Below, in pieces: positions 59,356 to 64,000 of a stretch of DNA of 64,000 nucleotides. The position numbers and the translations under genes were made by a program. Source of the DNA: Aeromicrobium sp. IC_218 (GTDB lineage: Bacteria > Actinomycetota > Actinomycetes > Propionibacteriales > Nocardioidaceae); assembly GCF_004336805.1 (NCBI RefSeq), contig NZ_SJXM01000017.1, positions 1-64,000 of the forward strand. Reading direction: 5' to 3'. The notes beneath the pieces were generated by a model, which saw only the letters and a program-made list of their open reading frames with translations, had not been told where the DNA came from and made no database searches. Within the stretch, counting starts at the first letter, position 1, and the number at the start of each line of letters is the position of its first letter.

Positions 59356-59997
59356 TCAGGCGTACAGGCCCTGGGCGTACTGCTCGGGCGCGTAGTAGCG
59401 GTCGAGCTCGTCCAGCGTCTGGCCGGTCGGCTCGAGCTGCGACGCGAGCACGGCCCGGCGGGGCACGTGCGCCTCGGGGTCCCAGGTCTCCGGCTCCCAC
59501 AGCCGCGAGCGCATGAACGCCTTCGCGCAGTGGAAGAAGACCTCCTGCACGTCGACCACCATCGCCATGACCGGTCGGCGGTCCTGCACCCGCATCTCGT
59601 CCAGGAACGGCGCGTCGCTGACCAGCGTCGCCCGCCCGTTGACCCGTAGCGTGTCGCCCCGCCCCGGGATGACGAAGATCAGGCCGACGTGCGGGTCCTG
59701 CAGCAGGTTGCGGTACCCGTCGGCGCGCCGGTTGCCCGGCCGCTCGGCGAGCGCGATCGTCCGGTCGTCGAGCACGTGGACCAGACGGCCGGCGGGATCG
59801 CCCTTCGGCGAGGCGTCGCAGCCACCGGCCCCGGACGTCGCCAGCACGCAGAACGGGCTCGCGGCCAGCCACGCCCGGTCGGCGTCGGTCAGCCGGGTGC
59901 GGCCCTTGTCGCGGGCCCGGGCCGCCGGCTCCCCCAGCAGGTCCGTCAGCGCCTGCTCCGAGTCCACCGTCGTCCACCCGCGCTCGTCCGTCGTCAT
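59356..59997 (-). CDS. PPOX-type FMN flavoprotein
   Basis: 213 aa. FMN-binding split-barrel: WLAASPFCVLATSGAGGCDASPKGDPAG, NRRADGYRNLLQDPHVGLIFVIPG, and FFHCAKAFMRSRLWEPETW. It resembles the MSMEG_1061-type subgroup, pyridoxamine-phosphate-oxidase related but probably acting on another substrate. It converges on the NTF2-like gene. Confidence 0.88.
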   Translation of the reverse strand: MTTDERGWTTVDSEQALTDLLGEPAARARDKGRTRLTDADRAWLAASPFCVLATSGAGGCDASPKGDPAGRLVHVLDDRTIALAERPGNRRADGYRNLLQDPHVGLIFVIPGRGDTLRVNGRATLVSDAPFLDEMRVQDRRPVMAMVVDVQEVFFHCAKAFMRSRLWEPETWDPEAHVPRRAVLASQLEPTGQTLDELDRYYAPEQYAQGLYA

Positions 59998-60009: not shown

Positions 60010-60164
60010 CGCCGCTCCGACCCGCCGCCGTCACGACGACGTGAGACGCGCCACGTCGACCGCGAGGGGTGGAGGGCGCGGCGGCCGTGTCGCTCAGGTC
60101 GGCGGCGGCGCTGACGAAGGTGCTCGGGACCGTGCTCGGACGGTCCTCGGACCCAGGAGCCGTC

Positions 60165-62564
60165 TTGCGCCACCCGCTCGCCCGTCTGGTCGTCGTCGCC
60201 CTCGTCGCCGCCGGGCTCCCGCTCACCGGCTCGGCCGTCGCGTCGGCCGCTCCCGTCTCGCTCGCCTCCCCGTGCTCGGACCCGCTGGTCGACGAGGCGC
60301 AGCCCGCCGAGGACGCGCTCGCGGAGCTGCCGGACGCCGAGGTGGCCGCCGTCAACGACCTCTCGGTGCCCCGGCTCCGCGAGGAGGCCCGGGACGAGGC
60401 CCTGTGGGTCGATCCGTGCGGTCGGCTGTACGCGGTCGAGGAGGCGCCCGCCGAGCCCGAGCCCGCCGACGTCGCTCCCCCGGTGGCCCGGGCGGCGACC
60501 GATGCGTTCGCGCTGCACTCGCGCCCGGGGGCGCCGCGCACGATCTACCTGGACTTCACCGGGCACTCCCTGACCCGCACCGCGTGGAACAGCGAGCGGC
60601 CGACCATCACCGTCGGCGCGTGGTCGTCGGACGCCGACCCGGCGACGTTCTCCGCCGCCGAGCGCGCGACGGTCGCCGCGGTCTGGGAGTCGGTCGCGGC
60701 CGACTACGCGGCCTGGGACGTCGACGTGACCACCCAGGACCCCGGCGTCGACGCGCTCGTCCGCACCAGCACGTCCGACGCGCGGTACGGGATGCGCGTG
60801 CTCGTCGCGGGCGACAGTGACGGCATGCAGACCGAGTGCGGCTGCGGCGGCGTCGCGTTCGTCGGCGTCTTCGACCGCGTCGGCGGCGCCTACCAGCCGG
60901 CGCTCGTCTTCGGCCGGGTGCTGGGCTCGGCGAAGGCGATCGCCGAGGCCGCCTCGCACGAGGCCGGCCACACCTTCGGACTGTTCCACGACGGCGACGC
61001 CTCGGCGGCGTACCACGTCGGCACGCGGCCCTGGGCGCCGATCATGGGCGTCGGCTACTACCAGCCCGTGTCGCAGTGGAGCCACGGCGAGTACGCCGGC
61101 GCCACCAGCACCCAGGACGACACGGCGATCATCTCCTCGAGCCTGCCCCTGCTCCGGGACGACCACGCCGGGCCGGCGACCCTGGCCACGGCCACGCCGC
61201 TGACGTCCTCGGCCGCCGGCGTCGTCACCGGACCGGCGGACCAGGACTCGTTCGCGGTCGAGTCCCTCGGAGCGGTGACGGTCACCGCGACCCCCACGAG
61301 CGCGACGACCGACCTCGACGTGGAGCTCGTCGTCACCGACGCCTCGGGCGTCGTGCGCCAGAGGGTCAACCCGGCGGCCACCCGCGTGAGCGCGTCCGTG
61401 GCGAGCGGCCTGGGCGCCTCGGCGCAGCTGGCGGCCGGCCGCCACGTCGTCACGGTGCGGGGTGGCGCGGGGCCGGGCTACAGCGCGTACGGGTCGCTCG
61501 GCGCGTACCGCATCACCGCGACCGGCGAGGTGGCCGGAACGGTGCTGACCGCCGCACGGACGGTCGCCCCGGCCGTCGTCGGCCGGCCTTACACGGCCAC
61601 CGTCGTCACCGGCGGCACGCCGCCGCTCTCCTGGAGCGGTGCCGACGTGCCGCCCGGCCTCGTCTTCACCGACGACGGTCGCCTCACCGGCACCCCCACG
61701 GCCACGGCCGGCCCGAGCCCCCAGGTGCCGGTCGTCCGCGACGCCACCGGCCGCACGGTCGAGCTCGCCGCCTGGTCCGGCTTCGCGGTGGAGACGCCCC
61801 TGACCCCGATCGCGGCGTCGCTCCCCCGCGCGACCCGAGGACGTCCGTACGCCCACCTGCTCGGGGTGACGAGCGCACCCGCCGACGTGCGCTGGAGCGC
61901 GTCCGACCTGCCCACCGGGCTGGCCCTGGACACGGACGGACGCCTGTCGGGGACGCCGGCGCGGGCCGGCACCTCCACGGTCACGCTCACCGCGGCGAGC
62001 GGCCGCCAGAGCCGGACGCAGCGCGTGCCGCTGGTCGTCCAGGACGTCGTCGGAGTCAGCACGTCGAGCGTGCCGACCGCCGTGGTCGGCACGGCGTACC
62101 GGGCCCGGCTCGGCGCCACCGGCGGCGACGGGCGGTACCGCTGGACCGCCACCGGCCTTCCCGCCGGCCTGGCCCTGGCCGCGGACGGGACGCTCAGCGG
62201 CCGGCCCCGCGCCGTCGGCACCACCCGCGTCACCGTGACAGCGAGCAGCGCGGCCACCACCGCGACCCGTCAGGTCACCGTCGTCGTCCGCCGGACGGTC
62301 TCGGTGCGCACCCGCACGGTCCGGTCCGGGCGACTCGGTCGTGCCTACCGGTCGGACGTGAGGATCGACGGCGGACGGCCGACGTTCGTGTGGCGGGCGA
62401 CGGGCGTGCCCCGCGGCGTCCGCCTGGTGCCCACGCGGGCCGGGACACGCGCCACCCTGCAGGGTCGTCCGCGCCGGGCCGGCACCTACCGCGTGCGGGT
62501 GCGCGTGGCCGACGCCACCGGCCGCGCCGTGACGCGCACGCTGACCCTGCGCGTCCGCCGCTGA
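60165..62564 (+). CDS. Secreted metzincin-type protease with four Ig-like repeats
   Basis: 799 aa from TTG. The signal peptide (about residues 1-29, ending ASA) is followed by a protease domain with HEAGHTFGLFH, i.e. HExxHxxGxxH at 265-275, and a Met-turn IMGVGYY near 293. A beta-rich segment resembling a PPC domain (about 330-430) and four putative-Ig (He_PIG-like) repeats follow. The TTG is preferred over upstream in-frame GTGs because its AGGAG leader matches that of the downstream paralogue. Substrate unknown. Confidence 0.85.
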   Translation: MRHPLARLVVVALVAAGLPLTGSAVASAAPVSLASPCSDPLVDEAQPAEDALAELPDAEVAAVNDLSVPRLREEARDEALWVDPCGRLYAVEEAPAEPEPADVAPPVARAATDAFALHSRPGAPRTIYLDFTGHSLTRTAWNSERPTITVGAWSSDADPATFSAAERATVAAVWESVAADYAAWDVDVTTQDPGVDALVRTSTSDARYGMRVLVAGDSDGMQTECGCGGVAFVGVFDRVGGAYQPALVFGRVLGSAKAIAEAASHEAGHTFGLFHDGDASAAYHVGTRPWAPIMGVGYYQPVSQWSHGEYAGATSTQDDTAIISSSLPLLRDDHAGPATLATATPLTSSAAGVVTGPADQDSFAVESLGAVTVTATPTSATTDLDVELVVTDASGVVRQRVNPAATRVSASVASGLGASAQLAAGRHVVTVRGGAGPGYSAYGSLGAYRITATGEVAGTVLTAARTVAPAVVGRPYTATVVTGGTPPLSWSGADVPPGLVFTDDGRLTGTPTATAGPSPQVPVVRDATGRTVELAAWSGFAVETPLTPIAASLPRATRGRPYAHLLGVTSAPADVRWSASDLPTGLALDTDGRLSGTPARAGTSTVTLTAASGRQSRTQRVPLVVQDVVGVSTSSVPTAVVGTAYRARLGATGGDGRYRWTATGLPAGLALAADGTLSGRPRAVGTTRVTVTASSAATTATRQVTVVVRRTVSVRTRTVRSGRLGRAYRSDVRIDGGRPTFVWRATGVPRGVRLVPTRAGTRATLQGRPRRAGTYRVRVRVADATGRAVTRTLTLRVRR

Positions 62565-62677
62565 GCCCGGGCCGAGCGGCAGGATTCCGCGCAGGACCGC
62601 TCAGGTCGGCCGCGAGCCTGCCGATGGTCGGTCATCGTCCTGCACGGAAGCGGGACGCTCGTGACCCAGGAGCTCGT

Positions 62678-64000
62678 ATGTCACACCGCAGGACGCACTC
62701 CCTTCTCGTCGCCGCCCTGATCAGCACCGCGGTGCTGGCGGCCGGCGCCACCACCGTCGACGGACCGGCGGCCGTGGCCGCCGCCACGACGTGCACCCGA
62801 CCGCTGCTCGACGAGCCGCAACCGGCGCAGGACGCGCTGCCCGAGGTGCCCGACGCGACCGTCGCCGACCTCAACAAGATCCCCGTCCGGACGCTGCAGC
62901 ACGAGGCCGCCGAGGACGACGCCCTCTGGCTCGACCAGTGCGGCCGGCTGTTCGTCGTCGACGAGCTGCCCGCCGAGCCGGCGGCCACAGCGACCACGCC
63001 GATCGCCAACGCCAGCGTGAAGCCGGCCGACGCGTTCTCGCTGCACTCGCGCAAGGGCGCCTCGAAGGTCATCTACCTCGACTTCCGCGGCCGGACGCTG
63101 AGCGGCACCGCGTGGAACACCTCGCGCGGACGCACGTCGATCCCGCTCGGGGCCTACGACACCAACGGCGTCCCCGGCACGTTCACCGACGCCGAGCGCG
63201 CCGCGGTCGCCGCGGTGTGGGAGTCGGTCGCGGCCGACTACGCCGCCTGGGACGTCGACGTGACGACCCAGGACCCCGGCACCGCCGCCCTCGGCCGCAC
63301 GACGTCCACCGACACCAAGTACGGCATCCGCGTCGTGGTGACCAGCCGCAGCAGCGGCATGCAGGCCGAGTGCGGCTGCGGCGGCATCGCCTACGTGAAC
63401 GTCTTCGAGCACGTCGGCGTCCAGTACCAGCCGGCGCTGGTGTTCGCCGAGGCGCTCGGCTCGCCCAAGGCGATCGCCGAGGCGGCCTCGCACGAGGCGG
63501 GCCACAACTTCGGTCTGTTCCACGACGGCGACGCCAACGCCGGCTACCACACCGGCACCGACCCGTGGGCGCCCATCATGGGCGTCGGCTACTACCAGCC
63601 GGTCTCGCAGTGGAGCCGCGGCGAGTACGCCACCGCCACCAACCAGCAGGACGACACGGCGATCATCGGCCGCCAGCTCGGCGTCGCCGCCGACGACCAC
63701 CCGGGCACCACCGACCCGGCCGTCGCCACGCGGCTGACCACCAGCGCCACGGGCCTGGTCACCGGACCGGACGACGCGGACAGCTTCGTCGTCACGTCCG
63801 AGACGCCCATGGACGTCGTCGCCGAGCCGCTCACCACCTGGAGCAACCTCGACGTCGAGCTCACCGTCAGCGACGCGTCGGGCGCGACCACCCAGGTGGT
63901 CAACCCCGGCACCACGCGCAGCAGCGCCACGACGGCCCAGGGTCTCGGCGCGACCGCCAGCCTCCCGGCCGGCACGCACGTCGTCACGGTCCGCGGCGGC
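62678..64000 (+). CDS. Paralogous secreted metzincin-type protease, 3' end outside window
   Basis: 441 codons without a stop before the window ends. Signal peptide at residues 1-36, then the same protease core: AAVWESVAADYAAWDVDVTT, MQAECGCGG, HEAGHNFGLFH at 272-282 and IMGVGYYQPVSQWS. About half the positions match the upstream gene over the shared region by eye, so the pair is a tandem duplication. The leader (CCCAGGAGCTCGT before ATG) matches that of its neighbour. Confidence 0.9.
   Translation, partial: MSHRRTHSLLVAALISTAVLAAGATTVDGPAAVAAATTCTRPLLDEPQPAQDALPEVPDATVADLNKIPVRTLQHEAAEDDALWLDQCGRLFVVDELPAEPAATATTPIANASVKPADAFSLHSRKGASKVIYLDFRGRTLSGTAWNTSRGRTSIPLGAYDTNGVPGTFTDAERAAVAAVWESVAADYAAWDVDVTTQDPGTAALGRTTSTDTKYGIRVVVTSRSSGMQAECGCGGIAYVNVFEHVGVQYQPALVFAEALGSPKAIAEAASHEAGHNFGLFHDGDANAGYHTGTDPWAPIMGVGYYQPVSQWSRGEYATATNQQDDTAIIGRQLGVAADDHPGTTDPAVATRLTTSATGLVTGPDDADSFVVTSETPMDVVAEPLTTWSNLDVELTVSDASGATTQVVNPGTTRSSATTAQGLGATASLPAGTHVVTVRGG

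Follow-up and report, generated by a model that had tools for sequence, protein, structure and literature searches.

Near the end of the analysed window, a stretch of 64,000 nucleotides from the 3.3 Mb genome of a member of the Nocardioidaceae, two adjacent genes raise the question of what kind of protein they encode, what these proteins do, and how the pair arose. The closest named relative in the analysis was Aeromicrobium massiliense. The reading that we favour, with a probability of roughly 0.78, is that the pair encodes zinc endopeptidases, secreted and of zymogen type, which belong to an adamalysin-like (M12B-like) clade of bacterial metzincins and cut extracellular protein, and that it stems from an old tandem duplication.

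The two genes are tandem paralogues on the + strand. Gene 1 (60165..62564) is an open frame with a TTG start, encoding a metzincin protease precursor of 799 aa, and gene 2 (62678..64000, on to contig position 64831) is an open frame with an ATG start, encoding a metzincin protease precursor of 717 aa. The contig ends at position 66583, and the end of gene 2, at 64831, lies outside the window; read beyond 64000, the gene was found to encode approximately three Ig-like repeats, compared with four in gene 1. The first-pass annotation had placed tandem metzincin-type protease genes near the window end, and both open frames were found there together with all the motifs that it named. No further paralogue besides this pair was found in the genome. 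A divergent neighbour gene (59356-59997, - strand) has a pyridoxamine-oxidase-type look when read by eye, and the same divergent gene adjoins the protease in A. massiliense, upstream of the gene 2 orthologue. A plasmid or phage origin of the gene pair was rejected, as only distant matches were obtained. A distant match (33%) was located on the large replicon of Cupriavidus metallidurans (NC_007974.2 1163427-1164122), at a place for which the PLSDB table lists no gene.

The zinc motif HExxHxxGxxH was identified as HEAGHTFGLFH in gene 1 (60957..60989, +) and as HEAGHNFGLFH in gene 2 (63491..63523, +), and the Met-turn region IMGVGYYQPVSQWS was common to both (61041..61082 and 63575..63616, both +), as the sequence had first been read. 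In gene 1 numbering, H265, E266, H269, G272, H275, and M294 were invariant in 54 aligned relatives, and their equivalents were also invariant in 76 aligned relatives, both sets being drawn from Actinomycetota, Pseudomonadota, Verrucomicrobiota, Planctomycetota, and Cyanobacteriota; the corresponding methionine of gene 2, Met266 of alignment A3, was likewise invariant. The third zinc histidine, being one of these residues, aligns with the third histidine of adamalysins in the family profile. It is followed by Asp (D276) in 45 of the 54 members, and both window proteins carry HD at this place. The cysteine-rich segment ECGCGG, reported earlier as a shared feature, was matched exactly in both genes (60834..60851 and 63368..63385, both +) but does not serve as a family hallmark: it is lineage-restricted, with cysteine at the position of Cys225 in 29 and at that of Cys227 in 37 of the 54 aligned members, and these cysteines are missing from many Verrucomicrobiota, Planctomycetota, and Cyanobacteriota.

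The conservation of these residues bears on whether both proteins are enzymes at all. One or both copies might be adhesins that have retained the fold but lost catalysis, as could be argued from the divergence of gene 1, whose protein is 56% identical to that of gene 2 over 704 aligned residues (far beyond chance), and from its one extra Ig-like repeat. However, neither copy has lost any residue of the zinc motif or the Met-turn, and identity between the paralogues is highest in the catalytic domain, at 69% compared with 53% in the prodomain, 58% in the PPC-like domain, and 48% in the Ig-like region; we consider the loss of catalysis hardly credible.

A Foldseek search with the whole gene 1 protein as modelled was dominated by Ig-domain matches, and the pro- plus catalytic part of gene 2 was therefore modelled by itself. 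The AlphaFold model of this part of gene 2 was confident (pLDDT 92.4, pTM 0.92), as was that of the gene 1 catalytic domain (pLDDT approximately 95). The PDB matches listed by Foldseek for the gene 2 model were metzincins, namely ADAM33, acutolysin A, adamalysin II, serralysins, ADAMTS-4/-5, and profragilysin. The best of them reached an E value of 2e-3 with a probability of 0.98, and the TM score by target length was approximately 0.5 with an rmsd of 8-10, a modest similarity that points to the superfamily fold and not to a close relative. No close family member with a solved structure was found. When the family profile was compared with the PDB, adamalysins were retrieved at an E value of 2e-5, and HExxHxxGxxHD was aligned residue for residue. 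In Pfam, Reprolysin_3 picks up many members of the family, including gene 2 (26.3-27.0 against a cut-off of 22.4); gene 1 fell below every peptidase cut-off, its reprolysin scores being just short of them (Reprolysin_3, 20.2 against 22.4; Reprolysin_5, 24.5 against 27). Gene 2 is predicted by the model to have the metzincin catalytic fold, and sequence and model together indicate that both genes encode metzincin-type zinc endopeptidases, which are probably secreted.

Both proteins have the same domain order: a signal-peptide-like N-terminus, a prodomain, the metzincin domain, a PPC-like domain, and Ig-like repeats. Judged by eye, each N-terminus has a basic start followed by a hydrophobic stretch and an A-x-A; in gene 1 the signal-peptide-like part covers residues 1-28 (60165..60248, +). 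The gene 1 prodomain and linker (residues 29-112; 60249..60500, +; border approximate) are conserved in relatives and confident in the model. The catalytic domain (residues 113-335; 60501..61169, +; borders approximate) was delimited by motif invariance, the model, and profile alignment, and the PPC-like domain (residues 336-457; 61170..61535, +) by alignment with relatives matching PF04151 (PPC), which was matched by 24 of 32 homologous segments at an E value of 0.1, the gene 1 segment itself giving no match. The rest of gene 1 (residues 458-799; 61536..62561, +) consists of four Ig-like repeats, beta-rich in the model; their earlier count was confirmed by He_PIG (PF05345), which matched four stretches at 93.6 bits, compared with a cut-off of 24. 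He_PIG was not among the Pfam matches of gene 2 at an E value of 0.05.

From this anatomy, a course of action can be proposed. A signal peptide would export each protease; the conserved N-terminal prodomain of approximately 60 residues would keep the enzyme latent or assist its folding; and once the prodomain has been removed, extracellular protein would be cut with the aid of a single zinc bound by the three HExxHxxGxxHD histidines, presumably in a nutritional role. The PPC-like domain and the three or four Ig-like domains may extend the enzyme and bind substrate or envelope material non-covalently. The repeats had been taken earlier to point to surface or glycan binding, which is unproven: the Ig-like and PPC-like domains are merely suggestive of it, and a C-terminal anchor was found in neither the gene 1 nor the gene 2 protein.

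The lack of an anchor also weighs against dedicated cell-surface processing in place of scavenging, such as shedding or envelope maturation, in which the enzymes would be tied to the wall by their Ig-like and PPC-like domains, with different envelope proteins as substrates of the two copies. The He_PIG repeats of gene 1 would suit such a role, and so would the C-termini of two members from the same genus (L090 and L091), which appear to be SLH-type repeats and suggest surface tethering there; two members match Pfam SLH. However, the distribution of the family is patchy, with members in 11 of the 49 genus genomes (two being marginal) and in 85 of the 198 genomes sampled from the taxonomic family, a pattern unlike that of an envelope function of the housekeeping kind. 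We judge surface processing unlikely, and the reading as secreted endopeptidases acting on extracellular protein is preferred.

For latency, the prodomain is the part of interest. The motif DxxGRL..(V/I)(D/E) marks a folded unit at the N-terminus that is common to Actinomycetota, Pseudomonadota, and part of the Verrucomicrobiota; the model places this unit with confidence, which would be compatible with a zymogen prodomain. In Planctomycetota and Cyanobacteriota it is absent or replaced by another form; therefore, latency conferred by this prodomain cannot be general. A cysteine switch was considered and rejected as a family feature because Cys85, in DPCGRLY, is confined to the Aeromicrobium trio, with D, R, Q, and other residues elsewhere. 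Cys85 is perhaps paired with Cys37, and that an acidic residue takes the place of the switch cysteine is only a guess.

How the pair arose can be approached from its upstream regions and from its relatives. The 12-mer GCTCAGGTCGGC was matched exactly 73 bases before the start of gene 1 (60092..60103, +) and 79 bases before that of gene 2 (62599..62610, +), and CCCAGGAG, a probable ribosome-binding site, lies five bases before the TTG of gene 1 (60152..60159, +) and five bases before the ATG of gene 2 (62665..62672, +), so that the shared leader motifs described earlier, some 80 bp upstream and just before the start, are both present. Scattered matches between the two upstream regions extend from the 12-mer to the ribosome-binding site, which would fit a duplicated upstream region. 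Across the genome, the 12-mer was matched exactly 7 times, compared with 1 for the reversed control, and A. massiliense retains only CTCAGGTC of it. With the two copies before the pair examined, a GCTCAGGTCGGC regulon was not demonstrated. The 12-mer may be a shared relic of the duplication or a minor element, and by itself it is weak evidence. No upstream RNA element was detected, with zero Rfam matches over 8.6 kb.

In a maximum-likelihood tree, gene 2 and its A. massiliense counterpart formed a group (100/99) to which gene 1 was sister, the trio being supported at 100/100. A. massiliense carries the gene 2 orthologue alone. The simplest reading of the tree would be that an old tandem duplication preceded the separation from A. 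massiliense, where gene 1 was later lost; alternatively, gene 1 could be young and fast-evolving. Comparison of gene 2 with the A. massiliense gene gave dN of 0.065 and dS of 0.336, indicative of purifying selection, and dN/dS between gene 1 and gene 2 was set aside because third positions are 96-98% G+C. Adjacent copies, approximately 3 kb apart or less, were also found in six genomes besides the present one (G098, G104, G118, G122, G126, and G157), as well as in Kribbella (L006) and at two Verrucomicrobiota loci (L016 and L043, listed with L006 as tandem). Tandem copies thus recur in distant members, indicating that local duplication is common in this metzincin family.

A single scan across 84,980 species genomes yielded 193 confirmed relatives, and the best 80 of the 193 belonged to Actinomycetota, Pseudomonadota, Verrucomicrobiota, Planctomycetota, and Cyanobacteriota, with one in a Saccharibacteria bin. 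A further possibility is that the enzymes are aimed at other cells, competitors or hosts, whose surface glycoproteins they would cut. The superfamily fold is that of fragilysin and of snake venom metalloproteases, the family shows weak profile similarity to CpaA, and its patchy distribution and recurrent tandem copies would be in accordance with such a role. However, the similarity to fragilysin and the venom enzymes is at the superfamily level only, the relatives are mostly environmental bacteria of several phyla, and no neighbour gene suggests a conflict system. An offensive role is accordingly rated as quite improbable, and secreted endopeptidases directed at extracellular protein remain the preferred reading.

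A family member with a PPC-like region was also found in cyanophage S-CRM01 (L097:3818-5728; HQ615693.1 46147-48057), its gene lying between those for the gp21 prohead protease and the gp22 scaffold. Its zinc motif reads HEIGHTLNLFHDG, with the motif Gly changed to Asn. The only strong match in a viral structure library was the 636-residue F5B3R2 (E 2e-21), which by its length is the S-CRM01 protein.

The kind of enzyme is well known and the family is under-described. The suggestion in the first-pass annotation that the family is poorly described holds, since there is no dedicated NCBIfam model for it and no paper on it was found in the literature library searched; Reprolysin_3 nevertheless recognises many members. 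No biochemically tested member of the family was found. We tentatively propose, at somewhat less than even odds, that the pair belongs to a distinct, unnamed subfamily of bacterial metzincins, with an adamalysin-like core, its own small prodomain, a near-obligate PPC-like domain, an occurrence in at least five phyla and one cyanophage, recurrent tandem duplication, and prodomain latency by a means other than a cysteine switch. The pair itself is an ordinary duplication of a probably secreted enzyme; the clade, which is large, would be of interest as a source of bacterial ADAM-like proteases and, possibly, of a different zymogen mechanism.

Among known systems, serralysins resemble the pair as secreted bacterial metzincins, but the putative signal here looks to be of the Sec type, RTX repeats were not seen in the Pfam scan, and the NCBIfam serralysin model (NF035945) gave 13.3 bits against a subfamily cut-off of 500. 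Mep72 of Pseudomonas aeruginosa, a biofilm-secreted metzincin described as adamalysin-related (PMC4334185), is likewise a secreted bacterial metzincin with accessory binding domains after the protease; it differs in its carbohydrate-binding modules and associated BamI (PMC4334185), none of which was seen here, and the NCBIfam Mep72 model (NF052434) gave 14.1 bits against an equivalog cut-off of 645. Fragilysin (profragilysin-3, 3p24, 7pnd) is a bacterial metzincin made as a zymogen and was matched by Foldseek, but the structural match is weak (E approximately 0.03) and no tail domains are in common. Clostridial collagenase ColH also has a PPC-like domain after the protease, and its binding domain was matched at an E value of 0.084; the catalytic domains are from different families, and the gene 1 segment lies below Pfam PPC. 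Compared with adamalysins and reprolysins (Pfam Reprolysin_3 and Reprolysin_5; MEROPS M12B; adamalysin II, acutolysin, and ADAM33), the present proteins are bacterial, have only four cysteines, two of which form the CxC found in part of the family, carry a different prodomain, and end in PPC-like, PKD, or Ig tails and not in disintegrin domains. At 10-17% identity in structure alignments, the two groups share HExxHxxGxxH with the following Asp, the GxAYvg strand before the active-site helix, the Met-turn, and the overall fold.
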